Shown in pieces: positions 4,190 to 40,656 of a stretch of DNA of 43,508 nucleotides (positions within the stretch are counted from its first letter, which is position 1; each line of letters begins with the position of its first letter). A program made the translations under genes and the position numbers. The notes under the pieces are model-generated. The model was not told where the DNA came from and made no database searches. It saw nothing but the letters and a program-made list of their open reading frames with translations. This DNA is from Pseudomonadota bacterium (lineage in GTDB: Bacteria; Pseudomonadota; Gammaproteobacteria; Steroidobacterales; SZUA-146), in NCBI GenBank assembly GCA_039028935.1, contig JBCCHD010000032.1, positions 1 through 43,508 on the forward strand, written 5' to 3'.

Positions 4190-4247
4190 GGTCGCCAGTC
4201 AGCTTGCATGTTTTTGAAGGCGACTGCGGCAACCGGCCGCACACTTC

Positions 4248-5278: not shown

Positions 5279-5288
5279 TGCCGTGTCT

Positions 5289-5678: not shown

Positions 5679-5692
5679 GCGAACGCTCACTT

Positions 5693-5739: not shown

Positions 5740-5761
5740 TTACGCAACGGAATAATCGGGA

Positions 5762-5797: not shown

Positions 5798-5817
5798 GAC
5801 ATTTATTGCTGCCAAAA

Positions 5818-5845
5818 AGAAAGACAATCCGAGGATTGCCTTTCT
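5818..5845 (-). terminator. Intrinsic terminator
   Basis: AGAAAG-a-CAATCC and GGATTG-c-CTTTCT form a long hairpin with a 2-nt loop. On the minus strand it is followed by TTTTT. It ends the two-gene unit of small membrane proteins at 5870-6253. Confidence 0.75.
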
Positions 5846-12122: not shown

Positions 12123-12210
12123 GTTGTCTTCTCCAACCCCTGAAAAGCCGAGGTGCGCGCGACGCCGGTAGGCATCTACAAATGAAGGGTACGATGCGCC
12201 CCTCAAGTGT

Positions 12211-14537: not shown

Positions 14538-15007
14538 TACGACAATACTCCAGCAATAATTAGGGTTAGATAGACACCAGTCGCGATAACTGCGCTGGTC
14601 ACGTATTCCATTCGACGCTTGATGATTTCGTTCTCGCGGGATTTGCGAAAGATCGGCCAAAGGCCGGTCAGCATGGCAAGCAAATAACCGGGCAGAATTT
14701 TTCCGATGCTAGTGAGGTCATCGAACGTAACTAAAGCGATTAGCCAGGTAAGGGTAAGCGCCGTGAACGGGAAACTCACACAAACCTGTGCGGGTCCGTA
14801 TGGCATTTCCTCGATGTTCTGTTGAACACGATTTAGGAAAAAGAAAGTTGCGGCGCAAGCGAGCACCGCAACAGGTACGCCAGTGTGGATACCCCACACT
14901 GTTGGGAGGAATGAAGCAAGCACAAACAACGTCATCGGTGGCAGTGCCGCGAGGACAACAGGCCGTGCGATGTCGAAGTAAGATTTCACCTCAGCGGTTG
15001 CTAGCAT
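14537..15007 (-). CDS. Four-span membrane protein of the T4SS operon
   Basis: A 156-aa integral membrane protein with about four spans (residues 18-36, 39-58, 78-108, 134-155) and a charged cytoplasmic loop after GLWPIF. It is paralogous to 3498-3971. It overlaps the end of the VirB10 gene by 17 nt and has AGGA before ATG 15007. No VirB/Trb equivalent is recognised; its place between VirB10 and the PilL-like protein suggests a structural role in the channel. Confidence 0.75.
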   Translation of the reverse strand: MLATAEVKSYFDIARPVVLAALPPMTLFVLASFLPTVWGIHTGVPVAVLACAATFFFLNRVQQNIEEMPYGPAQVCVSFPFTALTLTWLIALVTFDDLTSIGKILPGYLLAMLTGLWPIFRKSRENEIIKRRMEYVTSAVIATGVYLTLIIAGVLS

Positions 15008-24066: not shown

Positions 24067-25176
24067 TTAGCTTCCTCGATCAAATCCATAACGCTTTGCA
24101 AGTCCTAAGACTAAAGAACCCTCAAAGCTATCGGGGTTTTTCGTGTGAACGCCTTGCACGTAATCAAAGCCCCACAACTCAAACGTCTCATTACCCCGAA
24201 CTTCTGTAATCGAAACAATCACGCGTCCGACGTTTGGAACCTTCTCAGCTTGAATTAGCAAATGCAAGTTGCTTCTAACCTGCGATTCAACATAAGAAAC
24301 CTCGAGTCCTGTAGCGCCTAGAAAGTTTTGCAAACGCAGTAACGCATCGAAGCAACTGTTTGCGTGAAGCGTCGAGGCACAACCGTTATGTCCAGTGTTG
24401 ATCGCTTGTAAAAAAGCAGACGCCGCGTTCATGTCTCGAATCTCACCGACAATAATCCGATCAGGATTTTGTCTCAGCGCAGTCTTGATGAATGCGGGCA
24501 TCGACGTGTCCTGGGCATCGCCCTCGTCTTTCTTCCGATTGGCAGAAACTAACTGCACACAGTTAGGCACGCCGATTTTCAATTCCTCGGTATCTTCGAC
24601 GGTCACTACGCGCTCTTCTTCTGGAATGAAGCTGCTTAACACGTTAAGCAGCGTCGTCTTACCGGAGCCGGTTGAGCCGGATACCAAAATGTTCGAGCGA
24701 ACTTTTACGGCGAGTTTTAGAAACTCGAACATCTCGTCAGTAAACGAGCCGCCCTGTCGAAGATCGCTCGCAGTCAGAACGCTTTTCGGGAAAATGCGTA
24801 TGCTCAATGAGCTTCCGCCTGCCGACCAAGGCTTGAGAACACCGCAAACCCTCGACCCATCTGGAAGCCGTGCATCAACAATCGGGTGATTGAGCGGATC
24901 GCTCGATTGACCCGTGTTAGTCGCGATCATATGAATCAGCGTTTGCACGGCTTCTTCATTTTTGAAGGTCGCATCGACCTTCTCTATCTGCCCTCGCCGC
25001 TCGATGTAGATCTGGTCGAATGAGTTGACCATGATTTCTGTCACCTGCGGGTCAGAGAAATATTCAAAGACCGGCGCCAGATACATTTCGACCAGCGACG
25101 CGGACGATGTGCTCATAACGTCGGTTTCACCGCCGATATGCTCGATGTCCTTCGGATTGAATTTGTCGTTGCTCAT
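24067..25176 (-). CDS. virB11: VirB11-family T4SS ATPase
   Basis: A 369-aa hexameric traffic ATPase. Walker A is GSTGSGKTT (167-175), the Asp box VEDTEE (194-199), Walker B IIVGEIRD (241-248) and the His box TGHNGCASTLHANS (261-274). It is complete and of normal length. Unlike most VirB/Trb operons it lies upstream of the main operon promoter, coupled (ATGA) to the relaxase candidate, so it is expressed with DNA processing genes. Confidence 0.96.
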   Translation of the reverse strand: MSNDKFNPKDIEHIGGETDVMSTSSASLVEMYLAPVFEYFSDPQVTEIMVNSFDQIYIERRGQIEKVDATFKNEEAVQTLIHMIATNTGQSSDPLNHPIVDARLPDGSRVCGVLKPWSAGGSSLSIRIFPKSVLTASDLRQGGSFTDEMFEFLKLAVKVRSNILVSGSTGSGKTTLLNVLSSFIPEEERVVTVEDTEELKIGVPNCVQLVSANRKKDEGDAQDTSMPAFIKTALRQNPDRIIVGEIRDMNAASAFLQAINTGHNGCASTLHANSCFDALLRLQNFLGATGLEVSYVESQVRSNLHLLIQAEKVPNVGRVIVSITEVRGNETFELWGFDYVQGVHTKNPDSFEGSLVLGLAKRYGFDRGS

Positions 25177-25916
25177 GGGTTTAGCGCCTCAAGGTAGTCA
25201 AAGCGGAACCGCGAGCGGATAGCTTCGCTATCCGCCTTCGCCATGACCTGGCTATCGCCATCCATCTGCGCGCGAATCTTTCCGTACTTATCGCGAAAGT
25301 GTACGGGCCATTGGGGTTGATCGAAGCGACGCTTATACCCATCACAGAGGGATTGCGTCGGAAAGACGTATAAGACGCGCTCGTAGAGCTGCGCCTTCAT
25401 GTTCTCGATGTGATCCATGAAGCCGAGATAAATCCGACTACGGCTTTTCTGAGTGAGTTCGACTTCCAGTGCCAGTACGTCCTGATCGTCCGTCACAAGC
25501 GCGTCAGGCCGTTTCTGCTGTTCGATAGTGGTAATCATGCGTTCCGACTGGAAGTCGAACGGAAGCGCGATCCCTGCCCCCTTGATGTCGATAATGGCTC
25601 GCTGAACGCTCAAGGTGTGGACGGTCGTGGAATTCACGACGCGCGATGGCGTGGCGTGATAACGCTCTGCCTTCTCAGACAATCGAGCCGCGTATTGCTT
25701 GCCTTGGAAGTTCAGCATCCAAAGTTGCTCTTTGAGCAACGGATGCCGGACGATTTCAAACAGGCCGGATTTCTTTAACGATAGGAAAAAGCTGTTCTGA
25801 TTTTTACTGTTGATGCCAAGGGCACCACACAAAATGCTGCGGGTCGCCACATGAAATTCGAGCATCCAGTGAATGACAAAATCACGCTTTTCGTCGAATC
25901 GTGCTCGCTTATTCAT
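25173..25916 (-). CDS. Replication-relaxation protein, candidate MOBC-type relaxase
   Basis: A 247-aa protein with an N-terminal winged helix (about 10-60) and a C-terminal restriction-endonuclease-like region: RPDALVTDDQDVLALEVELTQKSRSRI gives Asp, Glu-x-Glu and a downstream Lys in PD-(D/E)xK order. This matches the replication-relaxation family that includes CloDF13 MobC, a relaxase without the usual HUH Tyr. No HUH relaxase is encoded elsewhere in the window, and the gene sits beside the hairpin-rich region opposite the coupling protein, all fitting a MOBC system. ATG 25916 has GGGCGGGG upstream. Coupled to virB11 by ATGA. Confidence 0.75.
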   Translation of the reverse strand: MNKRARFDEKRDFVIHWMLEFHVATRSILCGALGINSKNQNSFFLSLKKSGLFEIVRHPLLKEQLWMLNFQGKQYAARLSEKAERYHATPSRVVNSTTVHTLSVQRAIIDIKGAGIALPFDFQSERMITTIEQQKRPDALVTDDQDVLALEVELTQKSRSRIYLGFMDHIENMKAQLYERVLYVFPTQSLCDGYKRRFDQPQWPVHFRDKYGKIRAQMDGDSQVMAKADSEAIRSRFRFDYLEALNP

Positions 25917-25943
25917 GCCGCCCCGCCCATCCAAAATTGACCA

Positions 25944-26083
25944 GTTGTAGAACTACAACTTGGGTCAATTGAAGCGCCGTAGGCGCGAATTTTTTCGGCG
26001 GTTGTAGAACTACAACGCGAGCGTGGAACATTCCTGAAAATCCAAATTCGTGAAACATGAGCGGCCAGTTGTAGTTCTACAAC
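25944..26083. repeat. Three 16-bp operators beside the relaxase gene
   Basis: GTTGTAGAACTACAAC occurs at 25944-25959 and 26001-26016, and its complement form GTTGTAGTTCTACAAC at 26068-26083. The first lies 28 bp upstream of the relaxase start and is embedded in a larger palindrome (TTGACC at 25937 with GGTCAA at 25963). Spacing between copies is 57 and 67 bp, so no strict phasing. Confidence 0.85.
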
Positions 26084-26087
26084 CGCA

Positions 26088-26690
26088 GCCCGAACGATTG
26101 TTCGGGCGCCCGCTTGTGTGCTTTCGATGAACCCCGATTCAGCAAAATGCCGAGTCCATTTTGCAGGGTTCATGCTCTGCTGAAAAATCCGCGAAGCGAG
26201 ATTTTTGCACGCGGCGTCGAGACCACTTTGGGGCGGTAGACAGCTACGACGAGCCGCGCGTGAGCACGTCCAGTGCGAGCGAAAGGAGCCGCGTCCAGCG
26301 GCGGGGCCAATCCTCAAATTGGCCCTCTCGGGCAAGATCGAGCGGCTTCGCCGCCGAAGGAAATGGAGTCGCCCCAGCGACGGAATGACCGGTCTTGTCT
26401 GCGCCTCCTGGCGCAGATGCGAGGCCCTAGCCGAGCACCCAGGAGTACGTGAGCGCCCTAGCGCGAACGAGTGATCGGAGGCCCCCCGGCCGGAGAGAGC
26501 GGTGCTCCGCACCCGCGTCAGATGGGAGCGCCAGCGAGCAGCCTGACCACCCGTTTTGAGGGTCGACCGTCCAGGGAGATCGCGAAGCGACAAGGCGCAA
26601 AAACCAAGGAGGAACGACGCGGTGCGCCGCAGCCCGCAAAGCGGGTGGTCAGGGTGCGAGCATCCCTGACGCGGGTGCGGGTGAATTTTT
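26088..26690. other. Hairpin-dense non-coding region (oriT or structured RNA?)
   Basis: Hairpins follow one another: GCCCGAAC/GTTCGGGC (26088-26107); ATGAACCC/GGGTTCAT enclosing GCAAAAT/ATTTTGC (26127-26173); AAAAATC/GATTTTT (about 26184-26206); GGCCAAT/ATTGGCC (about 26307-26326); TCTGCGCC/GGCGCAGA (about 26397-26416). A nested pair of long-range repeats, 13 bp (26509-26521 with 26666-26678) outside 12 bp (26542-26553 with 26642-26653), closes before ATTTTTCG. A 317-codon frame across it has no family signature and is Arg/Ser-rich, so it is rejected as a gene. Confidence 0.65.
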
Positions 26691-26860
26691 CGTGAGTGAG
26701 GCGTCCAGCCGAGGGGTAGAAAAAGAGGGTATGCCAGGAGCCCTAGCGACGGAAATACCCTTGAGACGTAGTGGCGTCCAGCAAACGCAGTCTCTTGAAA
26801 CGATATTTTTCGCGCCGAAAAATTCGTTTGTGAGCATTGTCGATAAGGCAATGTGAATGC

Positions 26861-26940
26861 TTTCATATGGCAGATTATATGGGAGATCGCATAGCAGTTT
26901 CAATGCAAACCCAAAAAGGCATATAATCTCCCATATGAAA
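26861..26940. repeat. 21-bp inverted repeat, candidate oriT or operator
   Basis: Bases 26861-26881 and 26920-26940 are inverted copies differing at one position, separated by 38 nt. They contain CATATGG and AGATTATATG blocks and are AT-rich compared with the flanking GC-rich DNA. Just upstream is a perfect ATTTTTCG/CGAAAAAT hairpin (about 26803-26821). Position between relaxase and coupling protein fits an origin of transfer. Confidence 0.6.
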
Positions 26941-26957
26941 TGCCATGTCGTTGAGCA

Positions 26958-27043
26958 GTTGTAGAACTACAACCGCCCTGCTCTACGACAAAGTTGTAGA
27001 ACTACAACCGAGGCCAAACCTCGGAAAGTTGTAGAACTACAAC
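26958..27043. repeat. Three 16-bp operators before the coupling-protein gene
   Basis: GTTGTAGAACTACAAC occurs at 26958-26973, 26993-27008 and 27028-27043, with a regular 35-bp period. They lie 85-170 bp upstream of ATG 27128 and probably control the coupling-protein promoter. The regular spacing differs from the relaxase-side triplet. Confidence 0.88.
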
Positions 27044-27127
27044 CGCGAGCGGAGACGATATCAGCGCTGAGGTAGAACGCAAAATGAGGCTTGAACAACG
27101 GGTAAACGAGAAGGAGGATAGCTAGGT

Positions 27128-29065
27128 ATGCAAGAGCTAGCTTTGCAATTTCTGGACTGGTTTTATGACTGGGTAAACCCGTGGTACTACCTCTGCGTCG
27201 CGCTGATTTTTTTCGGCTTCGCGTTGCTTGGCACACGCCCATTTGTCGTGAACCAACTCGACAAATATTCCCTCGGCGAATTGATCGTGATCCGAATTCG
27301 GCAGGTGTGTGGCTATGGCGCAATCTTCATATTTTTCATACTGCCAGCTTTCGTGTTCTACGTTGGGTGGGCCATCACCCAAGAACCGACTGCGCTGTAT
27401 CTCGAAAAATTTGCGCGTTTCATGTGGAACGAATATCTCGATATTTGGACACTGCCGATCATTGGTTGGCTCGCCGGATTTCTGTTGTCGCTGCTTCACG
27501 CACGCGTAATTGTTCCACGCTGGTCATCGCTGAAAAGGCGATGGTCCGTGAAACAATCCGGCGACGAGCTGAGTGATATTCGTGCCATGAAGGGCAAGAT
27601 TGAGACCAACCAATACGACCCGACGAAGCACTACAAGAAGGGGCATATTTTTTACGGATTGGATAAATCCGGAAAACCAATTTACGACACGGACGAAGAT
27701 TGGCGCGAGCGACATCAACGGTATGTCGGGCCGACACAAGTCGGTAAGGGTATCGAGTTCGGGGTGCAATTAGACCAGGCGATTCGCAAGGGATATTGCG
27801 TGATTTTTGTGGACCCCAAACCGGATAAACACGCTCGAGCGATCATGGCAAAAGCCTGTGAAGCGACAGGGCGTAGGTTAGTCACTTTGGATTTGCGCGA
27901 CGCGGGCAAAGGCAAATACGCGCCATTCGCCGGAGGCGATGCGCGAGACCGTAGGGCACGACTGCTGCATGTGATCGGTCTCGCCGACACCGGCGGTGAC
28001 GCGGATTACTACAAAGCGAATGAGCGTGAGGTCATCGACGCTTTGTTCGGTAAATGGGATGGCACAGTAGGCCATCTACGCAAGCTGCTCAACGATCCTA
28101 AAGTGCGTGATTCGGTGAGCCGAAGCCGTAGTTACATCAACGAGATTATGGCGATTTCGACGTTCCAGACGACGCCAGCGCGTCCTGGCTTCTCGGTTGA
28201 ACGTAGCTTGCTTGAGGACGCGGTTGTTTACATTCGCGGCGACCTGGACGACACCGTTGTTAACAGCATCACGACCAGTCTGCTCATGGAGATTGTGCAA
28301 GAGCTGAAGCGGCTGCACACGCAACGCAAGACGCATTGCTTCGTAGCGATCGATGAGGTTGCGTTCTTGATCTCTGAGAAAGTCGCAGACGCACTAGCGA
28401 CGATTGCGGGATTCAACGCAAACATGGCGCTTGCTTATCAATCCGAAGGGGATCTGTTGAACCTCAAGGACAAAACGATGAACGCGCGAGCGATTTCGCA
28501 GCGCGTGAAAGTCAATTGCAAGACCTCGCTGTATTACATGGCGAAGGATGCGGAAACCGCAGAAGTGATGGCCGAAGAATCCGGCACCATTCAAAAGTCC
28601 GTCACGTTCAGTCAAGGCGTCGATGTGGGTCGCCACCAGGAAGAAACGTGGGAGAACAAACGCTCAGTACGCAAGGCCGAAGAAAACCTAATCACGCCGA
28701 ATGAGGCGATGATGTTGCCGAAGCAAGTAGGGATTCTGTATCGGCCGAACGAACTGGCAACCCACGTGTTCACGTCCTGGGTCAGCGTCGATCTGGATCG
28801 ATACGGCGAACAGGCTTCGCCGGTGCCGCAAAAGGACGCCTCAGACGGAGCAGGGCGCGCGGAGAGCGATTTGAAGGACGAGAGCGAGCCGGTAGAGGCA
28901 GAAACCGCCTCAGACGCGCATACAGAGGCAGCAGAGGATACAGACGAGCCTATGGACCTTGGCGACGGCTTAGACCTGCCAACAGGCCACAGGCGCAAAC
29001 ACGCGCCTTCTGCGCCTCGAACGAAGTCGATTGATATTGATGATTTTGGACCGAAAGGATCGTAG
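27128..29065 (+). CDS. virD4: VirD4/TraG-family type IV coupling protein
   Basis: A 645-aa inner-membrane ATPase that brings the relaxosome to the secretion channel. Three to four N-terminal spans (about 18-36, 62-86, 105-123) precede the motor domain. Walker A is GPTQVGKG (201-208), followed by the VIFVDPKPDKH strand, and Walker B is HCFVAIDEVAF (403-413). The last 85 residues are acidic and low-complexity (Glu/Asp/Ala), a likely substrate-recruiting tail. AAGGAGG lies upstream of ATG 27128. Divergent from the relaxase, as MobB/MobC-like pairs need a dedicated coupling protein. Confidence 0.93.
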   Translation: MQELALQFLDWFYDWVNPWYYLCVALIFFGFALLGTRPFVVNQLDKYSLGELIVIRIRQVCGYGAIFIFFILPAFVFYVGWAITQEPTALYLEKFARFMWNEYLDIWTLPIIGWLAGFLLSLLHARVIVPRWSSLKRRWSVKQSGDELSDIRAMKGKIETNQYDPTKHYKKGHIFYGLDKSGKPIYDTDEDWRERHQRYVGPTQVGKGIEFGVQLDQAIRKGYCVIFVDPKPDKHARAIMAKACEATGRRLVTLDLRDAGKGKYAPFAGGDARDRRARLLHVIGLADTGGDADYYKANEREVIDALFGKWDGTVGHLRKLLNDPKVRDSVSRSRSYINEIMAISTFQTTPARPGFSVERSLLEDAVVYIRGDLDDTVVNSITTSLLMEIVQELKRLHTQRKTHCFVAIDEVAFLISEKVADALATIAGFNANMALAYQSEGDLLNLKDKTMNARAISQRVKVNCKTSLYYMAKDAETAEVMAEESGTIQKSVTFSQGVDVGRHQEETWENKRSVRKAEENLITPNEAMMLPKQVGILYRPNELATHVFTSWVSVDLDRYGEQASPVPQKDASDGAGRAESDLKDESEPVEAETASDAHTEAAEDTDEPMDLGDGLDLPTGHRRKHAPSAPRTKSIDIDDFGPKGS

Positions 29066-29190
29066 ATGCGCCCACTGCCATCCGTGGCTTGAGGCGATTA
29101 GGGAAGCCTCGAATCAAGAGGTTTCAATACGGTACTGTCGCGACGAATGAAATTGTCGCACCCATTTTGAAAATATTTTTCACAAGCGCC

Positions 29191-29206
29191 GTTGTAGTTC
29201 TACAAC
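29191..29206. repeat. 16-bp operator, copy 7
   Basis: GTTGTAGTTCTACAAC lies between the coupling-protein stop and the bidirectional terminator. No promoter is evident next to it, so this copy may serve partition or looping rather than repression. Confidence 0.8.
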
Positions 29207-29227
29207 TGGCGGTAAAACACAGGCAAA

Positions 29228-29253
29228 AAAAAGGAACCCGAAGGTTCCTTTTT
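29228..29253. terminator. Bidirectional intrinsic terminator
   Basis: AAAAAGGAACC and GGTTCCTTTTT pair around a CGAA loop, with A- and T-runs on both sides. It separates the convergent coupling-protein and 139-aa genes. Confidence 0.92.
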
Positions 29254-29287
29254 GTGTATTTGCTATGAAAGCAAACAGATGAGCTCG

Positions 29288-29707
29288 CTATGAAGCGGTG
29301 CCATCCATGTCTACGTGGTGTTCGTAGACACTGTTAGCCAGACAGACTCGGTAGTAGTCAAACATGCGTTTAACAAATACCGTGTCAGGCGAATGCGAAA
29401 TTTCGCAATACTTATCTCGCTTACCTTTGTGGTAGTACAAGATGAGCATCGTTTCGCACTTACTCAAAGCCATCACGTAATCTTCTGCTACGAGAGCTTC
29501 TTTAGAATCGATCGGAATCGACGCTTCAGAAGTTCGGCCAAAGCCACGCGTAACCGGACTTGTTTCATATTCACCGTGAAACGGAGAACAATGAAGACGA
29601 AAGCCATTTTCGAGCAAGTAGTTACACTGCTCGCGAAAACCCAATGATTTGCCAAAGCCAACCTTAGGTGACCGACGAAAATCGTCGACGTGTCGTGTGA
29701 GAAGCAT
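29288..29707 (-). CDS. Hypothetical protein, 139 aa
   Basis: A soluble, His/Tyr/Cys-rich protein (HCSPFHGEYE, YYHKGKRDKYCEISHSPD) with no membrane segment or recognised domain. ATG 29707 has a strong GGAGG site 6 nt upstream; the longer frame to 29749 lacks one. A 12-bp perfect palindrome at 29726-29737 lies in the promoter region. Single gene between a terminator and the par operon. Confidence 0.65.
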   Translation of the reverse strand: MLLTRHVDDFRRSPKVGFGKSLGFREQCNYLLENGFRLHCSPFHGEYETSPVTRGFGRTSEASIPIDSKEALVAEDYVMALSKCETMLILYYHKGKRDKYCEISHSPDTVFVKRMFDYYRVCLANSVYEHHVDMDGTAS

Positions 29708-29725
29708 AAAAGCCTCCTTACAATT

Positions 29726-29737
29726 ATCACATGTGAT
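29726..29737. promoter_or_regulatory. 12-bp palindrome upstream of the 139-aa gene
   Basis: ATCACATGTGAT is a perfect palindrome 19 bp upstream of ATG 29707, placed to act as an operator. Binding protein unknown. Confidence 0.4.
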
Positions 29738-29855
29738 TATTGATGCCACTTTTCAACTAGCCGAGAGTGACGGTTGCTAGTGCTTGCAAATGTAGCAAAA
29801 AACGCTTGATTTTTCACTCGGGATTCGCGTGGGGTAGCGCGAATTGAGATAGGCA

Positions 29856-30104
29856 TCAGTTGATCGAAACGGTTTTTAGAATCTCGATTGCTTTGTCTCT
29901 CACTGCAACGACACGATCAATCGTTGAGACATCAAGATTCGATTTCAGCGCTGCGGCCGCTAGTGAATCGATCTGTAAGAACAGTTCGCGAAGGGTGGCC
30001 TGGTCGATCGGCGATGATTGACTATCGTCAATTTCACGACGCAAATCTGCGAGTGCTGCGCGAGCACTCTGCAAGATTATTTGACCGTGATGTAGCCGTT
30101 CCAA
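29856..30104 (-). CDS. Hypothetical helical protein, last gene of the par operon
   Basis: An 82-aa, almost wholly helical acidic protein beginning with a TTG codon at 30104, 6 nt after the preceding stop. Heptad-like Leu/Ile spacing suggests a coiled coil. No family recognised. A real gene on context and composition; the TTG start is a guess. Confidence 0.5.
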   Translation of the reverse strand: MERLHHGQIILQSARAALADLRREIDDSQSSPIDQATLRELFLQIDSLAAAALKSNLDVSTIDRVVAVRDKAIEILKTVSIN

Positions 30105-30110
30105 ACCAAG

Positions 30111-30650
30111 TTAGTTCGCTTGTTTGGCGAGTGAGAAAACCGATTCAATGATCGATCGTAGGGGCGTGAGCAATTGCTTTGAAAGTTTCGCGTACTGCTT
30201 GTGCTCTATGGCGTTGTGATCTTTCAAACAGACCAGCTTGCCTCGAGCGGCATCGAAGTCTTGAAGGATCTGCAACACGGCAAGGAACATCTTATTGTTC
30301 CAGGTCACGTCGAAACTCAACCCCGAACCTGGCCGTGACGGTAGTCGTTTTTCCGCCGGTAGATCGTTAAACGCTTCTTCAATGGCCGCTACAGTATCGT
30401 CAAACCGTGTTTGGTTTGAACCAATCAGTTTGACTAACTCCTGCAGGGCGTCAGTCGCGGCCGCATCGTCCTGTGCGGACTTGCGATAAAGAATGCCGAT
30501 GATGCTGCCGCATTTGATGAGGTCTTTGTCTCGCAGCCCCGTATTGAAATCGGTGGCACGGCGATCAAAGATCGTCGCCGCCAGCGGGTCATTGAACGTT
30601 ACCGTTCCGTAGACGTGTGCTTTAGTTTTCCGTTTTGGTGGCTGCGTCAT
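30111..30650 (-). CDS. Hypothetical par-operon protein, 179 aa
   Basis: A soluble protein starting MTQPPKRKTKAHVYGTVTFN, with FDRRATDFNTGLRDKDLIKCGSIIG near the start and a helical C-terminal half. It resembles DUF1845-type plasmid proteins sometimes found with parAB; this is a recall-based match and uncertain. ATG 30650 lies inside the end of parB (overlap 29 nt). It probably assists partition or its control. Confidence 0.62.
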   Translation of the reverse strand: MTQPPKRKTKAHVYGTVTFNDPLAATIFDRRATDFNTGLRDKDLIKCGSIIGILYRKSAQDDAAATDALQELVKLIGSNQTRFDDTVAAIEEAFNDLPAEKRLPSRPGSGLSFDVTWNNKMFLAVLQILQDFDAARGKLVCLKDHNAIEHKQYAKLSKQLLTPLRSIIESVFSLAKQAN

Positions 30651-31530
30651 TGGCTGGTTCGTAGCGTTGTCCAGACTCGACCACTTTAAGTAGCTCAACC
30701 ACAACAGCCTTAAAGCCAGTGTCTAGCGCATCATCCGACTCGCAGGGTTCGCGATCAGGATGAAAGAAGGTGATGAGTGCTTGGGCTTCCTCGCGTGTCA
30801 TGGCGAGGTCGGGTGGAAGCGGGGTATTTTTCTTGGTTTTGTTTTTCGGTTTCTTGTCGCCGGCGTTCTTGGCGTCTTTCTGAGCGGCAAGCACTTCACC
30901 AACCGTCGCGTCTCCGGACGCGAGGTTTTCCAATATCGCCGGACGATTGTCTTCATCGATCTTAGCCAGCGAATGCAAACGCGCCGGATCACGCACGGTT
31001 CCAGTTTCCGCAAACTCCTGCACATCGAGGGGCAGTTCTAACAGTCCCAACATGCGGCTTAACCAGGCTTTATCTTTGCCGGTACTCGCCATAATTTCTT
31101 CGCGTGTAATGCCGCCATCGATGCGGCGTTTCAACGCGCGCGCGAGCTCCATCGGAGCGAGGCCAAGCCGTGAGAAGTTTTCGGTGAGCATATCCATCGA
31201 ACGTTGTTTTTCATCGGTGTTCAATCTCAGCAACGCAGGGATCGTTTCTTTCTCGGCCGCGATGGATCCGCGATACCGAACTTCACCGGCGATAATCATG
31301 TACCGACCAGGTACGTGCTCGTAGACTTCAATCGGTCGGCGAACGCCGTTCGCTTTGATGCTCTCAGTCATCGACGCTACGTGCGCTTTTGTTTCTTCGC
31401 TGTCCCAACTGTGTCGATCCTGATCGGGATCGGGGTCGACGTCGGTCAGCAGCAATTCAACGAGTCGGTCAGTTTCTTCTTGCTCGAGGAAATCTGAGAT
31501 ACCCGACATCATTGTGCTTTTGTCATTCAT
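30622..31530 (-). CDS. parB: ParB/KorB-family partition protein
   Basis: A 302-aa centromere-binding protein. The N-terminal ParB/Srx domain (about 50-130) has the VRRPIEVYEHV and GEVRYRGSI (box II-like) stretches and ENFSRLGLAPMELA. The helix-turn-helix is ITREEIMASTGKDKAWLSRMLGLLELP (about 146-172), and a Lys-rich linker leads to a C-terminal dimerisation region. KorB of RK2 is of this type and represses many promoters as well as partitioning. It is coupled to parA by ATGA (31527-31530). It is the best candidate binder of the nine 16-bp operators (inference). Confidence 0.88.
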   Translation of the reverse strand: MNDKSTMMSGISDFLEQEETDRLVELLLTDVDPDPDQDRHSWDSEETKAHVASMTESIKANGVRRPIEVYEHVPGRYMIIAGEVRYRGSIAAEKETIPALLRLNTDEKQRSMDMLTENFSRLGLAPMELARALKRRIDGGITREEIMASTGKDKAWLSRMLGLLELPLDVQEFAETGTVRDPARLHSLAKIDEDNRPAILENLASGDATVGEVLAAQKDAKNAGDKKPKNKTKKNTPLPPDLAMTREEAQALITFFHPDREPCESDDALDTGFKAVVVELLKVVESGQRYEPANDAATKTEN

Positions 31531-32348
31531 GCGTGAGCCTCCGCGACGTCTTCAAACTTGAATCCGGCGCGCCCTAACAACTCGTTAGCGAACGCTTCAA
31601 TTTCATTGCGAGCAACCTGCGATCCGCGGCCGCGAGCATCTTGAACCGATTGACCATCCTCGGCGGCGCCGATGGCGTCACGCAATCCGAACATGCCCAG
31701 GATCATGCCCGGGCCAATGGATTGCAGTTCCTCAAACACAGCGCGTTGCTTCGTGCTGTTCGGTTCTGGCTGACCGGCAGCATTCGTGCGAATGCCTCGA
31801 ATTCGATTCGGCAAAAAACCCTCGAATTTCAGTCCCGCATTGATCGAACCGCGCACGCTCTTAATCAGGTCCATCACTTCCTTAAACGCGCGTACAGAAT
31901 ACTTCTGTAGTTCGATCGGCGAGTAGACGTGGTTGGATGCGCCAAGCGCGGAAGCAAGCACGGTGCTTGTTGATCCTGGGGTATCAATCAACACCAGGTC
32001 GTAGCGATCGGGGAATTGTTCACCGATGCGTTCCTTGAGACACATCATCACTTTCAAATCCTTCGATTCGGACAGACGCGATAAATACGCATCGGCCGGT
32101 AGGATGCTCAGATTATCGCGAATAGGAATCGGAGTAATCGGCCCATCCTCGACCATCAACTGATAGGTCGTGTCGTGATTTTCGATTTCATCGATGTCAT
32201 CGAAAAATGAGACCGTGAGACTCGCCTGTACGTCGGCATCGATCAACAGGGTTCGGAGTCCATGTTCAGCCGCGTAGTGGCCCAACATGGCGATGGTCGT
32301 AGTTTTGCCTACGCCACCCTTGACTGATGCAACGCTGATTACTTTCAT
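31527..32348 (-). CDS. parA: ParA-family partition ATPase
   Basis: A 273-aa P-loop ATPase with the deviant Walker A KGGVGKTTT (10-18), the switch LLIDADVQASLT (39-50) and Walker B LVLIDTPGS (about 119-127). There is no N-terminal helix-turn-helix, so it is a type Ib-like or MinD-like short ParA. It drives plasmid segregation with ParB. A perfect TTGCAATATTGCAA palindrome lies 22 bp upstream of ATG 32348. Confidence 0.94.
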   Translation of the reverse strand: MKVISVASVKGGVGKTTTIAMLGHYAAEHGLRTLLIDADVQASLTVSFFDDIDEIENHDTTYQLMVEDGPITPIPIRDNLSILPADAYLSRLSESKDLKVMMCLKERIGEQFPDRYDLVLIDTPGSTSTVLASALGASNHVYSPIELQKYSVRAFKEVMDLIKSVRGSINAGLKFEGFLPNRIRGIRTNAAGQPEPNSTKQRAVFEELQSIGPGMILGMFGLRDAIGAAEDGQSVQDARGRGSQVARNEIEAFANELLGRAGFKFEDVAEAHA

Positions 32349-32369
32349 AGGATTTGTCTCTCAGGTAGT

Positions 32370-32383
32370 TTGCAATATTGCAA
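32370..32383. promoter_or_regulatory. Palindromic operator before parA
   Basis: TTGCAATATTGCAA is a perfect 14-bp palindrome followed by a half copy (ATATTGCAA to 32399). Related CAATATTG sequences overlap the promoters at 5729-5736 and 32722-32729, suggesting a second regulon. Confidence 0.55.
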
Positions 32384-32406
32384 TATTATCATATTGCAAG
32401 AACGCA

Positions 32407-32664
32407 TCAAGCAAAACTATGATCCAGCTCGACACCGGTCATGCCGGTGGACTCCGCCCAGGTCATTGCTCGGTGCGGATCACGCATCATTCGGATGCCG
32501 CCGCGAAATGTGTGAATCTCGAATTTTTTTCGTGCGCCCTTCGCATGGAGCGCGTACTGGTTGATCGTTGGGTCGTACTCAAGAATGAGTTTGAATTTTT
32601 CGCCGTCCTTGATTCTCTGCTTGAGTTCGCCTTCAAGAATTGTCAGTTCGGATGTTTCAGACAT
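32407..32664 (-). CDS. Hypothetical protein at head of the par operon, 85 aa
   Basis: A small soluble protein: a helical start, a strand pair (FKLILEYDPTINQYALHA) and KKFEIHTFRGG, ending with AMTWAESTGMTGVEL. Such genes precede parA in other plasmids, but no named family is recognised. It may regulate the par operon. GATGAGAG lies before ATG 32664; 58 nt with a palindrome separate it from parA. Confidence 0.65.
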   Translation of the reverse strand: MSETSELTILEGELKQRIKDGEKFKLILEYDPTINQYALHAKGARKKFEIHTFRGGIRMMRDPHRAMTWAESTGMTGVELDHSFA

Positions 32665-32702
32665 GGACTCTCATCTAGTCATTGGTTAGTCGGAAGGTTC
32701 TC

Positions 32703-32766
32703 GTAGGCGCAGGCAAAACAACAATATTGCCATATGATAACTCTGTACGAGTTGTAGTTCTACAAC
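32703..32766 (-). promoter_or_regulatory. par operon promoter with 16-bp operator
   Basis: -10 TATTGT (32726-32721) is followed after 10 nt by GCGCCTAC (32710-32703). The operator GTTGTAGTTCTACAAC (32751-32766) covers the region just upstream of the expected -35, and CAATATTG overlaps the -10, so two regulators could act here. Confidence 0.55.
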
Positions 32767-32911
32767 TTCGTGAGCGAAGCGAGCGCTTTAACCAGGCCGA
32801 TAGGCCGAGCAAGTTGTGTAGTGCCGTAGGCTGAAGTTGGCGTGGCTTGCCACGACATTAATTCTGCGCGAAGCGCCATTTTCTTCGAGGCTGTGTAGTG
32901 AACGCTGAAAC

Positions 32912-33181
32912 TTATCCACCGTTTTCGGTCGCTAATATCAGGCCAGTAACCTATAGGAAGAATTTATATAGGATATATAGGATTGTGCCCCAAACTGGTC
33001 TCTGGTTTCGCCCCAAAGTAGTCTCTGAAAACGCGACCATAGCGCCCCAAAGTAGTCTCAGAAGCGCCCCAAAGTAGTCGTGGATAACTTCGGTTCTCCA
33101 CCGACTTACACACAACAGCGGGCCGTGAAAATAGTCGTTTATTTTCAATAGGATAGGGCAAAAGCGCCCCAAAGTAGTCTC
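32912..33181. other. Iteron-type replication origin (oriV)
   Basis: Five 16-bp direct repeats GCCCCAAAGTAGTCTC lie at 32987 (two mismatches), 33010, 33044, 33066 (final bases differ) and 33166. DnaA-box-like TTATCCACC (32912-32920) and CGTGGATAA (33079-33087) flank and interrupt them. An AT-rich stretch with three TATAGG repeats (32951-32984) would be the unwinding element. repA begins immediately beside the last iteron. Confidence 0.88.
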
Positions 33182-33186
33182 TACTG

Positions 33187-34359
33187 CTATCGAGCGTCAG
33201 GCTTGAGCGATAGGAGCCGCTTTTTCGCGACTGGCGGCTTGCTGTGGGCAAGGAACATGCCTCGGTGATCGATCTTGAAACGCGCTTCCGGATAGACCAC
33301 GTAGACTTGCTTCAAGGTGTCTTTGAACACCTCTCTGAACTTCCTCAGACGCTTGTAGTTCTGTCCGAATTGCTCATGCAATCTTGGCCAAGGGATGAAC
33401 TGATTACGCTCAGGCTTTACCCTGTGAAGCCTCTGCGCGAGCCAGGTGTAGATGTCTAAGCCCATCGCACTGTGCGAGAGCCGAGCGACGGCCGTTTCAT
33501 TCAGCGGAACCGCGTGTTCGAGCAAGCTATCGAAGTAGTCTTGGCTGAACGTCACAATGCTAGGCCACAATACGCGTTGGTTTTCGTGGCTGGATTCCCA
33601 TAGCTCGAAACCCTTAACGATGTCGGCCTTCACGGTACGCGGTCGGCCGTTAACCATCATGCCGAACGTCAATCGACACGCTGAGAGGCGTGAGAGCTGT
33701 TCCTTGACGATTTTGACGTTCTGGCCCTTGTGAGCCAAGCCAAGCCGCTTAACGAAAGCGGTGAGGCTGTCACCTACCTCGACGTGTCGCGACTGATTGA
33801 GGACCGCAAGCGTGTTGAGGTGATACAGGGCTAACCGGGCCTTCGGTCCAAAGGGGAGCGGTACGCGAACCATTTTATCGCCGTCGAACGCTTCACCGGC
33901 TGTCAAAGACAGGTGTGCGTCACCTTGCACCCGTGACCAGGTGTCGAGGCCCTTCGGGTCTCGATACGGCAAGACGGTCTGACACAAGACGGAGTGTTGA
34001 TAAACAATCTCGTCGGGTTCTTCATAGGCCAGTAGATCGCCCTGTAAGACGCGTGGCGTCTTCCTGGGCTTCTGTTCAACCGGAACGTTGGGTGTCGCCT
34101 CCGGCTCTGGTACGGGGCCTAAGAGGTCTTCTGTGTCCGGAGCGGGGATCGTCGCTTTGACGCGCAGCGTCGGCGATGGCTTGGCGAGTTTCTTCATGCT
34201 CGGCGTATTGAGTAAATCGCCGATGGCCTGGGGGCCGTTGTTCTGAGATTGTCTGCGTCGGGATGGCGGGGTCGCGGCGTCCTGCTCGATTTGAGAGTCT
34301 AGCTCGCGCTTCAACTCATCAAGCATACGCTGTGGATCGTCCCGCTTCTCGTCAGTCAT
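33187..34359 (-). CDS. repA: RepA-type plasmid replication initiator
   Basis: A 390-aa initiator with a long charged, Pro-rich N-terminus (about 1-105), then the conserved plasmid RepA domain. Visible blocks are VLCQTVLPYRDPKG, VRVPLPFGPKARLALYHLNT, VGDSLTAFVKRLGL and MGLDIYTWLAQRLHRV. It binds the iterons directly beyond its 3' end. ATG 34359 is preceded by a promoter with TTGCAC and TATAGT and the GCGCCTAC motif. That the gene reads away from copG and ends at oriV is typical. Confidence 0.92.
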   Translation of the reverse strand: MTDEKRDDPQRMLDELKRELDSQIEQDAATPPSRRRQSQNNGPQAIGDLLNTPSMKKLAKPSPTLRVKATIPAPDTEDLLGPVPEPEATPNVPVEQKPRKTPRVLQGDLLAYEEPDEIVYQHSVLCQTVLPYRDPKGLDTWSRVQGDAHLSLTAGEAFDGDKMVRVPLPFGPKARLALYHLNTLAVLNQSRHVEVGDSLTAFVKRLGLAHKGQNVKIVKEQLSRLSACRLTFGMMVNGRPRTVKADIVKGFELWESSHENQRVLWPSIVTFSQDYFDSLLEHAVPLNETAVARLSHSAMGLDIYTWLAQRLHRVKPERNQFIPWPRLHEQFGQNYKRLRKFREVFKDTLKQVYVVYPEARFKIDHRGMFLAHSKPPVAKKRLLSLKPDAR

Positions 34360-34374
34360 ACATTTTGTGCTTCT

Positions 34375-34422
34375 GTAGGCGCAGAATTTCCGCTACTATA
34401 CACTTCATCCAAGTTGGTGCAA
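34375..34422. promoter_or_regulatory. Overlapping opposed promoters of repA and the RHH gene
   Basis: On the minus strand TTGCAC (34422-34417), 16 nt, TATAGT (34400-34395), then GCGCCTAC (34382-34375) lead to repA. On the plus strand TATACA (34397-34402) is a -10 for the RHH gene with a weak -35. The two -10 boxes share four bases, so RNA polymerase cannot occupy both. Confidence 0.55.
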
Positions 34423-34432
34423 ATAGAACCAA

Positions 34433-34627
34433 GTGAAAAAAATTGCCGAAGAATCAACGCAAGTAAGCGCAACAGTTCCCACGAATTATGCGGAACTCCT
34501 AGACGAGATGGGTGAGGAAGATCAAACCAACCGCGCTAGGCATGTGCGATTAGCGATTCAGGATTACCTCGAAAAGCACGGGAAGCTCAATACCCTATTT
34601 GACGCGCAACCGCGCAAGGCCAGTTAA
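34433..34627 (+). CDS. Ribbon-helix-helix (CopG-like) regulator
   Basis: A 64-aa protein with the RHH pattern: strand VSATVPTNYAELLDEM, a second helix NRARHVRLAIQDYLEKHG. GTG 34433 has no Shine-Dalgarno, so translation may be leaderless-like or weak. Divergent from repA with overlapping promoters, it is probably the copy-number repressor. It ends overlapping the primase stop by 4 nt (convergent). Confidence 0.7.
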   Translation: MKKIAEESTQVSATVPTNYAELLDEMGEEDQTNRARHVRLAIQDYLEKHGKLNTLFDAQPRKAS

Positions 34628-35547
34628 GCCGCGTCTAGTCCATAGAGTTTATTCACCGTCCGTCGAACGTAGTCTTCGACGTGGCCGGACTTGCGAGAAT
34701 TGAGCGAAGGACTCGCTTCAAGAATCGCAATCATTACCTGCTCTGCAACGTAGCCTTTCTCGCGCATGTTCTTGCCGATTGTCCAATCGGCCAACGACAA
34801 ATCGAGCTTCTTGCCGAAGCGTCCCATCAAGCCATGCAGTTCAGAGCGGTAGAATTCGGTAGGGTCTTTGAGGTCGTAGTAGGGCGTTTGATTGTCGTTG
34901 CGCGCGGCCTTTAGTCGCTCGATCTCCGCGAGCTGCGCGGCGCGTTCTTCTTCCAGAAGCACCTTACCGGCTTTAACCAGCTCAACGATGGCGTCGCTAT
35001 CGATGTGCTCACCGGCGCGTGTCGTGCTCTCTGAGAGCTTCACAAACGGGAAGTGACCACTGTCGTTCACATACTGAGGCTTTCGATTCGTAAAGCCGAC
35101 CAGACGTCCGAAGTGTCGCCAATCGGTGCTATTAGGATCGCCGCGAAAGCGACGCGCCAAGGTGCGGCCGATGGCGCTTGCGAGATCCGCATCGATCGGT
35201 TCATTGCTCACACGCACCCAGGCTTGAAAGTTCAACGGACTGGATTCAACGACAGCGGCAGGTTTGATACCTGCCCGCTCAATCTCCATTAAGCTGCTGA
35301 CGTTCAAATCGTCCATAAAGATAAGGCCCTGGCTGCCGTTTGGACGAATGAAAATGTGGTTGCCAGAAGCATTCTGGCCTTTTAGCCACCCCAACGACTT
35401 GAGTAGGGTGTCTCGATCCCATTCGCGCAGCATCATTTTCGCGTCTTCTTCGCCCTGTTCAGGGACTAAAACGCCAATCTCAAAATCCTCGACGCCCATC
35501 GCGTCAAGCTGACGAATGACGTTGCGACGCGTGAGATCAGTCGCCAT
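34624..35547 (-). CDS. RepB-type DNA primase
   Basis: A 307-aa protein with an archaeo-eukaryotic-type primase domain of the RSF1010 RepB family. Blocks are GNHIFIRPNGSQGLIFMDDL (catalytic DD near residues 92-93), AAVVESSPLNFQAWVRV and DPNSTDWRHFGRLVGFTNRKP. A C-terminal helical part (about 195-305) may be a PriCT-like region. It would prime lagging or incoming strands. ATG 35547 overlaps vapC; it is third in the vapB-vapC-primase operon, an unusual pairing. Confidence 0.83.
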   Translation of the reverse strand: MATDLTRRNVIRQLDAMGVEDFEIGVLVPEQGEEDAKMMLREWDRDTLLKSLGWLKGQNASGNHIFIRPNGSQGLIFMDDLNVSSLMEIERAGIKPAAVVESSPLNFQAWVRVSNEPIDADLASAIGRTLARRFRGDPNSTDWRHFGRLVGFTNRKPQYVNDSGHFPFVKLSESTTRAGEHIDSDAIVELVKAGKVLLEEERAAQLAEIERLKAARNDNQTPYYDLKDPTEFYRSELHGLMGRFGKKLDLSLADWTIGKNMREKGYVAEQVMIAILEASPSLNSRKSGHVEDYVRRTVNKLYGLDAA

Positions 35548-35929
35548 CTTGCATCCAGTTATCGACAACCAGGTTCGGCACACGTCCGAATTCTCGGTCG
35601 TTGTTCGTCACAATGGGTAGATCGAGTGCCAGCGCGTGCGCAGCAATCCAAAGATCGTTAGGGCCAATGATGTTGCTCTTGATAGTCATGCGAAGCTCGG
35701 CATACGCCTTTGCCTCGGCTTCGCCAATGACGGCAATGGCAATGTTGCCCAAGAACAGTTCTAGCTTTGCACGATTCTCGACAATGCGTTGACTGTTCAA
35801 ACAACCGTATTCAAGTTCGCCCAGCACGACGCTGGAAATGCAGCACTTGTGTAGCGGTTCGTGAGCGACCATTCTCGGATGCCGATTCATCAGGTAGATG
35901 CAGGTATCCGAGTCGAGCATTGCGTTCAT
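35537..35929 (-). CDS. vapC: VapC toxin (PIN-domain ribonuclease)
   Basis: A 130-aa PIN-domain RNase. Acidic active-site residues are seen at Asp 6 (MLDSDTCIYLM), Glu 38/40 (GELEYG), Asp 92 (IGPNDLWIAAHAL) and Asp 111 (TNNDREFGRV). Complete and normal length. Coupled to vapB by ATGA (35926-35929). Stabilises the plasmid by post-segregational killing. Confidence 0.93.
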   Translation of the reverse strand: MNAMLDSDTCIYLMNRHPRMVAHEPLHKCCISSVVLGELEYGCLNSQRIVENRAKLELFLGNIAIAVIGEAEAKAYAELRMTIKSNIIGPNDLWIAAHALALDLPIVTNNDREFGRVPNLVVDNWMQDGD

Positions 35930-36201
35930 CCGTCAAAACTCGCTCGTCGTGAATCTTCGCCGAGGTCTTCTTGTTTCGCGGCCAAAACCGCGTCAACGAA
36001 ATCATCGTCCACCGGCTCCATGTTGGCGAATAACTCGTCCCAGGTTTTGTAGCGCGGTGTGAGGATCAGCGCCCCGCCGATTTGTCGAATCGTGACCTCA
36101 TCGCAACCGTCCGGAAAGCGAAATTTTTTCGGTAAACGCACGGCCTGGGACTTCCCGGCCATGAAGACTTTTGCGCTGTCTGTGGGTTCTGTAGCTGCCA
36201 T
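35926..36201 (-). CDS. vapB: VapB antitoxin (AbrB-fold)
   Basis: A 91-aa antitoxin with the AbrB/MazE DNA-binding pattern AKVFMAGKSQAVRLPKKFRF and a C-terminal toxin-binding tail (DDFVDAVLAAKQEDLGEDSR). GGAGG lies 7 nt before ATG 36201. Probably represses its own operon. Confidence 0.93.
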   Translation of the reverse strand: MAATEPTDSAKVFMAGKSQAVRLPKKFRFPDGCDEVTIRQIGGALILTPRYKTWDELFANMEPVDDDFVDAVLAAKQEDLGEDSRRASFDG

Positions 36202-36226
36202 AAAAACCTCCGTTTTTCAGGCAACC

Positions 36227-36291
36227 AGTATAGCGCAAAAAAGATGTCTTAAAAAGATATATCGACCGAAAAAGGGTTGTAGAACTACAAC
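36227..36291 (-). promoter_or_regulatory. vapBC-primase promoter region with 16-bp operator
   Basis: -10 TATACT (36232-36227) with an AT-rich spacer upstream. GTTGTAGAACTACAAC at 36276-36291 lies about 45 bp upstream of the -10, and ends just beside the stop of the 57-aa gene. So the toxin-antitoxin and primase operon seems to belong to the same regulon. Confidence 0.6.
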
Positions 36292-36294
36292 TTG

Positions 36295-36468
36295 CTAGGG
36301 ATATAGCCCGTATTCCAGCTCCCTAAGTGTGCGCATGTAGTCGCCACATATGGGAGGTTCGTCTTCTTTCTGAACGGGCTTTGGGTCGGGGACCAGCGCC
36401 AAGGGCGCGCGGTTATTGGCTTCGTCTTGCATGATGTAGGCGCATCGGTTTTCTTGAGCATAGAACAT
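36295..36468 (-). CDS. Small protein, 57 aa
   Basis: A short frame starting MFYAQENRCAYIMQDEANNR, with a Pro/acidic centre (VPDPKPVQKEDEPP) and a helical end. ATG 36468 has AGG about 10 nt upstream. The N-terminus resembles that of the 69-aa Cys protein (MFYEDSKFCSNPRC) only faintly. No family recognised. Confidence 0.5.
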   Translation of the reverse strand: MFYAQENRCAYIMQDEANNRAPLALVPDPKPVQKEDEPPICGDYMRTLRELEYGLYP

Positions 36469-36560
36469 AGTCGATGCCTGCGAAATTTGTTATTAGAGAA
36501 ATGTGAGCAAGATGTTTTAGCGTCAAGACATTGACGCCTGCGCCGATAATTCATAAGCCC

Positions 36561-36848
36561 ATGACTGATAAATTCACAATTTACGCAGCGCCGCGATGCG
36601 AAAACGGTGGCTACTGGATACGCGATAGCGTTCCTCTCTACATGAAAGAATTTGCATCGCTCGATGCGATGGAAGCCTATTGGTTAAAGACCATTAAACC
36701 GGCTTCCTCAACTCGCAAAGGATTAGCTTTCGAGTTGGCGATGGTCATCACCGAAAATAGTAACTGGTCTTTTCACCGGCAACGCCGCTACGCGGATAAG
36801 CCGATTCTGCAACCGAAAGTTACGCAAGCGAACGTCGCGCAGTGCTAA
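36561..36848 (+). CDS. Small hypothetical protein, paralogue 1, 95 aa
   Basis: A soluble protein with FTIYAAPRCENGGYW, PLYMKEFASLDAMEAYW, FELAMVI and RRYADKPIL. All four blocks recur in the 93-aa gene at 40375-40656, so the two are clear paralogues. Start at ATG 36561, where the homology begins, rather than at 36531. Ribosome site weak. Function unknown. Confidence 0.7.
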   Translation: MTDKFTIYAAPRCENGGYWIRDSVPLYMKEFASLDAMEAYWLKTIKPASSTRKGLAFELAMVITENSNWSFHRQRRYADKPILQPKVTQANVAQC

Positions 36849-36871
36849 AAAAAGGGCGGCTTTCGCCGCCC
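36847..36871 (-). terminator. Intrinsic terminator
   Basis: GGGCGGC and GCCGCCC pair around a 4-nt loop, followed on the minus strand by seven T. It ends the large ParB-like operon and overlaps the end of the convergent 95-aa gene. Confidence 0.88.
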
Positions 36872-36900
36872 AAGTCATAGGTGGAAGGAGTACGTTGCAC

Positions 36901-37089
36901 CTATGAACGCGAGGAACCTTTGTCGTTGTTCCAAGCCACCAGGACGTGTCCGATGGCTTGTTCGATCTCTGTCATTAACTCCCAAATATCGCCTATGTCG
37001 GTGTGCTGCTTGTCCTCGCACTCCAAACGAAAATCCGCAATCTCAGTGCTAATCGCACTGAGACCGCGAACCGACTCGTCAAGCCTCAC
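36901..37089 (-). CDS. Small helical protein, 62 aa
   Basis: An acidic helical protein (SAISTEIADFRLECEDKQ ... IWELMTEIEQAIGHVLVAW) coupled to the ParB-like gene by ATGA (37086-37089) and followed by a terminator. No family recognised; probably works with the upstream protein. Confidence 0.6.
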   Translation of the reverse strand: MRLDESVRGLSAISTEIADFRLECEDKQHTDIGDIWELMTEIEQAIGHVLVAWNNDKGSSRS

Positions 37090-40059: not shown

Positions 40060-40374
40060 TGAAACGAGAGGAATGCTCTCGAGGCGCGCGTGAGCACGAC
40101 CCGAGAGCATCCCGTATTCGCGTTGGTTTCGTGTGAGCGACGTACATTTGACACGCCACCTGGCGAATACCCCAATGCACTCAGCAGGTCGCTCCTGGAT
40201 CAGCCTCCCCGCGTCCGGATTTCCAACCCTCGCGCGTTTAGTTTCAAAGAACGCTCTCAAGTGAGGATGCCAGCAAGATCATGCGTTGGTGCTTGGAGTG
40301 TATCAGCCACTGCAAAAAAATGACCAAATCCAGCAAATTCATTGGGTTTTCGGTATGGTGGCAGCGTACTGGCT
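40060..40374. other. Intergenic region without a supported gene
   Basis: Short frames on both strands look like noise. One long hairpin, ATGCTCTCG with CGAGAGCAT around an 18-nt loop (about 40073-40110), follows the bulged element. Nothing else was recognised. Confidence 0.5.
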
Positions 40375-40656
40375 ATGACCCAACGCTATTCAATATTTGC
40401 AGCGCCACGCACAAAGGAAGGCGTCTACCGCTTCACTGAATCCAAGCCGCTGTACCGAAAAGATTTCGCGTCCCTCGACGCGATGATGGAATTCTGGCGC
40501 ACAGATATTCGACCCCACACTACTCAGCGCGTCGGCGCTGAGTTCGAGCTAGCGATGCTTATCTGGCGCACGGGCACTGATTGGGTATTCCATGAGCAGC
40601 CGCGTTACGCATCCGAGCCGCTGCTGACCAAAGAACATTTGGTCTACAAACCTTAG
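40375..40656 (+). CDS. Small hypothetical protein, paralogue 2, 93 aa
   Basis: Shares YSIFAAPR, PLYRKDFASLDAMMEFW, FELAMLI and PRYASEPLL with the 95-aa gene at 36561-36848. ATG 40375 begins at the homologous residue; no strong ribosome site. Soluble; function unknown. Confidence 0.7.
   Translation: MTQRYSIFAAPRTKEGVYRFTESKPLYRKDFASLDAMMEFWRTDIRPHTTQRVGAEFELAMLIWRTGTDWVFHEQPRYASEPLLTKEHLVYKP

Follow-up and report, generated by a model that had tools for sequence, protein, structure and literature searches.

The window analysed here, exactly 43508 bases long, is the entire contig JBCCHD010000032.1 of a Pseudomonadota bacterium (Steroidobacterales, SZUA-146; assembly GCA_039028935.1). It carries nine copies of a 16-bp near-palindrome, GTTGTAGAACTACAAC, and we consider it likely that these are the operators and centromeres of the plasmid's own KorB-like ParB, controlling transfer, partition (par) and vapBC-primase genes. 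Judged by its predicted genes, the contig has a conjugative-plasmid backbone: a MobC-type relaxase gene divergent from that of a TraD-like coupling protein, VirB genes, parAB, and a RepA_C initiator with iterons. We infer that ParB is the binder, that it represses, slides and serves partition, and that the origin of transfer (oriT) lies among its sites.

The initial annotation had listed nine exact copies, all between genes and none in 1-25.9 kb, and a motif search of the window bears this out (Table 1). Each of the nine places also matches on the opposite strand with two mismatches, at an AA/TT centre. With up to three mismatches allowed no further place is found in the window; 0.18 matches are expected by chance, and the 18 obtained were reached in 0 of 100 shuffles. 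The motif is also the most repeated palindrome with 7-bp arms in the window, while 20 shuffles give at most one copy per family. All nine copies are intergenic within 24067-38960, where the intergenic share is 17% using a gene list of our own choosing.

Further, the 16-mer is not common in host chromosomes. The exact copies present in the host assembly (91 contigs, 4.1 Mb, 96.9% complete) are these nine, on the window's contig, there are none in the other 195 of 196 genomes (2 from the same genus, the rest from the same order), and the genome-contig scan described below agrees. Given this confinement, a host uptake, restriction or chromosomal motif was rejected. A mobile repeat was rejected as well, since the flanking sequences vary and are dissimilar between the nine copies, and so were replication iterons, which are a different repeat. 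A viral origin was set aside because 19 IMG/VR contigs have a single match each and no paired match; these single matches we take, without computation, for chance. A search for plasmid relatives with the DNA of the relaxase-coupling-protein gap found none.

The measured distances (28-155 bp) confirm that sites stand beside the relaxase-virB11 start and before the coupling-protein, par and vapBC-primase genes, and the 35-bp period claimed for the sites before the coupling protein is real. The site at 29191, described as lacking a promoter, indeed has no promoter-like match near it; a terminator-like hairpin is close by. Neighbouring sites are spaced 57, 67, 35 and 35 bp apart. These are not whole helical turns, so they suit independent loading better than a phased complex.

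Six of the nine sites form two clusters of three on either side of an inverted repeat with TGACCACCC arms, which is probably oriT. We read it so because of its position and because the oriT of pMET1 (PMC2262945) lies upstream of mobB with nic sites within an inverted repeat. Arms of the TGACCACCC type, picked for the script from repeats already noticed beforehand, occur in the gap between relaxase and coupling-protein genes in 8 of 17 records (the window, L031, L038, L039, L043, L044, L045 and L081) and are absent from the other nine, the Pseudomonas-Marinobacter clade and G865. In L081 sites also stand on both sides of the repeat (3120 and 3155, then 4129 and 4153; repeat 3628-3721).

Sites 4-6 lie behind the TATAAT box 26922-26927, where a bound protein would be better placed to block transcription than to activate it. 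In the promoter scan, however, only the mirror image on the minus strand received a score (26903-26874, 11 of 12), and this promoter is directed through oriT to the relaxase. Another motif, TCATATGGSA, is found close to the vapBC region and to the promoters of par and of the divergent transfer genes, being exact at 26863-26872, 26929-26938 and 32728-32737 and with one mismatch at 36346-36355. With one mismatch allowed it has 8 places in the window against 2.7 expected, for a motif spotted after the fact. A second regulator, such as a KorA-like partner, might use it as its operator.

The proposed binder resembles KorB. Its nearest PDB sequence is RK2 KorB (E 2.9e-19), PF02195, PF17762 and PF08535 all score above the Pfam cut-off, and its gene directly follows that of a ParA-type ATPase, with an overlap of 4 bp. 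By alignment its phosphate-binding motif is GEVRYR, set beside the CTP (cytidine triphosphate)-binding motif GERRxR or a variant of it; RK2 KorB has GARRYR. The sites of known relatives are not found in the window beyond chance: the RK2 operator O_B, whose consensus we take to be TTTAGCSGCTAAA, is matched twice, each time with 2 mismatches (0.73 expected), and chromosomal-type parS, presumably TGTTNCACGTGAAACA, has one place with 3 mismatches (1.36 expected). From the specificity residues described for ParB/Noc in PMC7383237, no site could be predicted for the window ParB. A second ParB-like protein, of 624 amino acids (aa) and with an HTH_ParB domain, is encoded at 37086-38960.

Further support for ParB comes from 19 relatives: 16 plasmids from coupling-protein and relaxase searches, several of them represented by about 40 kb, together with three genome contigs. 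They stem from Pseudomonas, Marinobacter, Bermanella, Vibrio, Eleftheria and enterobacteria, and their relaxases and coupling proteins are 24-40% identical to those of the window. A palindrome scan blind to the window motif (7-bp arms, gap 0-6) gave a best family of at least three copies in 15 of the 19. The best family has two copies in L044, L045 and L082, and one copy, i.e. no repeated family, in L043. When each of the 20 records, window included, was dinucleotide-shuffled 20 times, no family had more than one copy, except for two in L044. With 6-bp arms L045 has eight copies. In L047 an unrelated GC-rich element forms the largest family, and the parS-like family has 7 copies.

These palindromes are lineage-specific and comprise seven or more distinct sequences. 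TTTCCGAwTCGGAAA, often with an outer G/C pair, is found in L030, L032, L033, L034, L040, L041, L042 and L046, and with another centre in L029; L047 has TTTCAGAwTCTGAAA, L031 TTCCCGCATGCGGGAA, L081 TTTACGATCGTAAA, G865 GTTTCACGCGTGAAAC, L038 and L045 TTTCGCwwGCGAAA, L039 TTTGGCGCGCCAAA and L044 AGTTTACGCrGAGTAAACT. What is shared is the location: 15 of the 19 have one copy or more in the gap between the relaxase and coupling-protein genes, or in its remnant, upstream of the coupling-protein gene. The exceptions include L043 and two Vibrio plasmids, in which copies lie in the coupling-protein, parB and topA genes, among other places, and about 25 bp upstream of parB.

The palindromes are also linked to ParB. 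Of 17 relatives, 11 have a copy inside parB or no more than 300 bp from it, against 3.7 expected at random places (L039 and L043 are omitted, having no parB in their stretches). In a clade of eight (L029, L030, L032, L033, L040, L041, L046 and L047) the palindrome is inside parB, encoding a conserved VSDSET-like linker. As a group the relatives' arms are parS-like: for nine lineage half-sites of our own picking the matches to GTTTCAC sum to 43, where random sets have a mean of 27 and 0 of 20,000 reach 43, and G865 is near-canonical (GTTTCAC/GTGAAAC). ParB is present in 18 of the 19 relatives, 17 within the stretches searched by model and that of Eleftheria in the rest of its record. The sole relative in which ParB is not found (25.5 of 30.4 kb searched), L043, is also the sole one without a repeated palindrome.

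Such palindromes also precede traD in each of four plasmids added once the idea was in place: L092 has three copies (6-bp arms), L093 has five and one more in its parB, L094 has four and L095 has two. ParB was annotated or found for L092, L093 and L095; the L094 stretch is without ParB. Taken together, the sequence comparison suggests that ParB appears to own the sites upstream of the coupling-protein gene, their sequence differing per lineage.

Arms like those of the window are found beside parB elsewhere. Genome contigs from 84,980 species, each represented by a single genome, were scanned for pairs of GTTGTAGnnCTACAAC spaced 27-57 bp apart, which returned three stretches: two with a Prevotellaceae tandem array (L035 and L036), set aside as a 41-42 bp array containing GTTGTAGGCCTACAAC, and one from Pseudomonas asuensis. 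In P. asuensis three GTTGTAGGCCTACAAC lie directly behind parB, and P. luteola has the same three behind its parB. Thus GTTGTAG arms do occur as ParB-adjacent sites. ParBs related at 42-43% identity instead have TTGTCGTATGCATACGACAA-type arrays behind their genes. Arrays with a 12-bp core are found behind parB in two Pseudomonas plasmids, with 6 copies in L088 and 24 in L089. The latter, from a Pseudomonas psychrotolerans plasmid, is a long parS-like array (4098-5843) of 24 TGTCGT-6-ACGACA, mostly 72 bp apart.

The following points weigh against ParB as owner of the sites. The window's parB has no 16-mer copy inside it or less than 300 bp away. The half-site GTTGTAG matches GTTTCAC at 4 of 7 positions, and 23% of random half-sites do equally well, so that its likeness to parS is not significant. 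The ParB of P. asuensis is 17% identical to that of the window, and the site beside it has GC at the centre. P. luteola does not count as a second case, its ParB being 91% identical to that of P. asuensis. No close relative of the window ParB was found: plasmid matches are all below 60% identity, in 396 genomes of the order the highest identity among the matches listed is 45%, over part of the length, and viral contigs have no close relative. No plasmid was found with both a close relative of this ParB and the 16-mer.

The comparison with relatives has its own weak points. Likeness to the coupling protein or relaxase decided which relatives were picked, and they are dominated by one clade. Of the 11 copies near parB, 8 belong to a single clade, the other three being two Vibrio and G865. 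The ParB model was built from 14 of the ParBs it found, with L081, L082, G865 and Eleftheria as independent finds. Further repeated palindromes occur in the relatives, so that a repeated palindrome alone does not make a ParB site. In L082, which has ParB, there is nothing better than an AT-rich pair, located ahead of traD and ahead of parA; a search for its relaxase gene found none. L043 has non-palindromic repeats of 12-bp period (ACCCGTTATT and complement) upstream of traD at 3512-3608. Among the plasmids added later, the ParB accession of L095 is that of L044, and the sites of L093 and L094 are those of L032 and L047, which leaves L092 as the one useful addition. In the window itself, no -35 was scored for the TATAAT box that precedes sites 4-6.

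The sites could instead be operators of another regulator, with ParB using a different site. A 64-aa ribbon-helix-helix (RHH) protein with a DNA-binding domain (at 34433), a 197-aa protein that matches AcaB weakly, below the cut-off (at 30111), and the 85-aa open reading frame (ORF) heading the par operon are all encoded among the sites. We regard this as unlikely. Together with the gene before it the AcaB-like protein occurs in 12 of the 19 relatives, including L043, which is without ParB and without a repeated palindrome; in the 7 where it was not found, some of them partly fetched, 5 have a palindrome in at least three copies. For the 85-aa ORF the plasmid collection gave no match at E 1, and neither it nor the AcaB-like protein yielded useful structure relatives. 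The half-sites of the family resemble parS, and ParB is the only regulator among those followed that is common to the palindrome carriers.

Two further readings keep ParB as the binder, and to both we give little credence. ParB might activate the transfer genes, as BisDC of ICEclc does: the ParB-domain protein BisD, according to PMC7423338, activates promoters of the integrative and conjugative element (ICE) together with the DUF2857 protein BisC, and in 12 of the 19 relatives parB is followed by a conserved gene pair, which two of the records label AcaB family or TIGR03761 ICE protein. However, models of this pair have no match in the window, the sites precede par and vapBC as well, and those on the traD side lie behind the TATAAT box, though one without a scored -35. 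The sites might also be parS copies without a regulatory role, like the arrays behind parB in L088 and L089, two plasmids of another ParB clade. Eight of the nine window copies, however, precede the relaxase, coupling-protein, par and vapB starts, and none is beside parB.

We favour ParB as the binder because KorB is its nearest solved structure, because the relatives' palindromes are parS-like and because ParB is common to their carriers. Its candidacy, first put forward by analogy with KorB, is strengthened by these points and by the corresponding places of the relatives' palindromes; binding, repression and partition we infer. ParB dimers would load at the palindromes and, KorB-like, would act both locally and across adjacent DNA, so that less is transcribed from the relaxase-virB11 operon, the coupling-protein gene, vapBC-primase and the par operon itself. 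ParA would employ the same ParB-DNA complexes for partition. Since six of the nine sites bracket the probable oriT, the transfer origin would lie inside the ParB-bound region, between two three-site clusters. A more doubtful extension is that the partition complex covers or insulates oriT, gating inheritance versus conjugation, and that ParB and its site changed together many times while the layout was kept.

Table 1. Sites and neighbouring features in the window.
Feature	Position	Strand	Remarks
Site 1	25944..25959	+	28 bp before relaxase ATG (25916)
Site 2	26001..26016	+	85 bp before relaxase ATG
Site 3	26068..26083	-	152 bp before relaxase ATG
Site 4	26958..26973	+	155 bp before coupling-protein start (27128); 30 bp behind TATAAT box 26922-26927, which has no scored -35
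Site 5	26993..27008	+	120 bp before coupling-protein start; 35-bp period
Site 6	27028..27043	+	85 bp before coupling-protein start; 35-bp period
Site 7	29191..29206	-	behind coupling-protein gene, shortly before terminator-like hairpin 29228-29253
Site 8	32751..32766	-	87 bp upstream of first par-operon gene
Site 9	36276..36291	+	75 bp upstream of vapB, head of vapB-vapC-primase
VirB11-type ATPase	24067..25176	-	next gene after relaxase
MobC-type (replication-relaxation) relaxase candidate	25173..25916	-	NF041423 77 bits, under cut-off 200; Pfam Replic_Relax under cut-off
Probable oriT	26538..26657		inverted repeat with TGACCACCC arms, between sites 1-3 and 4-6
Two 21-bp inverted arms	26861..26940		each with TATAAT box; minus-strand box scores as promoter (11 of 12)
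TraD-like coupling protein	27128..29065	+	domain and homology searches
ParB/KorB-like protein, proposed binder	30622..31530	-	ParB_N, HTH_ParB, KorB above Pfam cut-offs
ParA-type ATPase	31527..32348	-	domain searches
85-aa ORF heading par operon	32407..32664	-	no relative found
RepA_C replication initiator	33187..34359	-	RepA_C domain; five iteron-like repeats start at 32987-33166
RepB-type primase	34624..35583	-	overlaps PIN gene
PIN-domain (VapC-type) toxin	35537..35929	-	domain search
MazE/VapB-type antitoxin	35926..36201	-	first gene behind site 9

The iteron-like repeats beside the replication initiator gene (32987-33180) are five copies of GCCCCAAAGTAGTC, the first of them varied. Several database records type the plasmids of the relaxase relatives as MOBC. 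Elsewhere in the window an ArdC-type antirestriction protein (ArdcN and a zincin-like domain) is encoded at 11217-12206. Two alike proteins of about 105 aa (36531-36848 and 40342-40656) are, by eye, likely paralogues. Two alike membrane-protein-like ORFs of about 157 aa (3498-3971 and 14537-15007, again by eye), without a Pfam match, could be entry exclusion proteins.

ParB binding at these sites would link transfer control with faithful inheritance, in a plasmid family that has also been met in patient isolates of Pseudomonas aeruginosa and Serratia. If the proposal is true, the family offers a natural series of orthogonal ParB-operator pairs for studying specificity change, and the competition of partition and transfer for one DNA stretch around oriT becomes testable. 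Long-range silencing by a ParB clamp is already worked out for RK2 KorB. According to PMC11790492, KorB loads at O_B, closes as a CTP clamp, reaches promoters up to 1.5 kb away and is locked by KorA.

In general the arrangement resembles KorB/O_B of RK2 (IncP-1): a ParB-family protein is encoded beside ParA, and many copies of one palindrome stand before transfer, partition and maintenance genes. It differs in that GTTGTAGAACTACAAC is not O_B, that no KorA homologue is recognised (no KorA/TrfB domain among the 20 window proteins scanned), and that the sites bracket the probable oriT in a MOBC-type backbone. Records annotated korB/parB, as in the KorB/ParB systems of IncU RA3 and PromA, match 58% of the window ParB at 36% identity; some of these we take to be PromA plasmids. 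BisDC of ICEclc is similar in that a ParB-domain protein controls conjugation genes, but it is an activator pair whose DUF2857 partner is not recognised in the window (no DUF2857 match among the 20 proteins scanned). Several relatives' palindromes have the GTTTC arms of chromosomal parS/Noc sites, whereas the GTTGTAG arm of the window is the more distant one noted above.

Finally, the MOBC plasmids Drgb7 and pSP14-1 and pMET1-type mobilisation regions are alike in having adjacent relaxase and coupling-protein genes, type IV secretion system genes and oriT-like inverted repeats upstream. The titles and abstract beginnings in the part of the literature covered hold no report of such palindromes for MOBC plasmids, and a string search of a paper library for three of them, in two forms or lengths, found no paper. 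KorB-type regulons as such are already known, and what is new here is the comparison of lineage-specific palindromes across the relatives.

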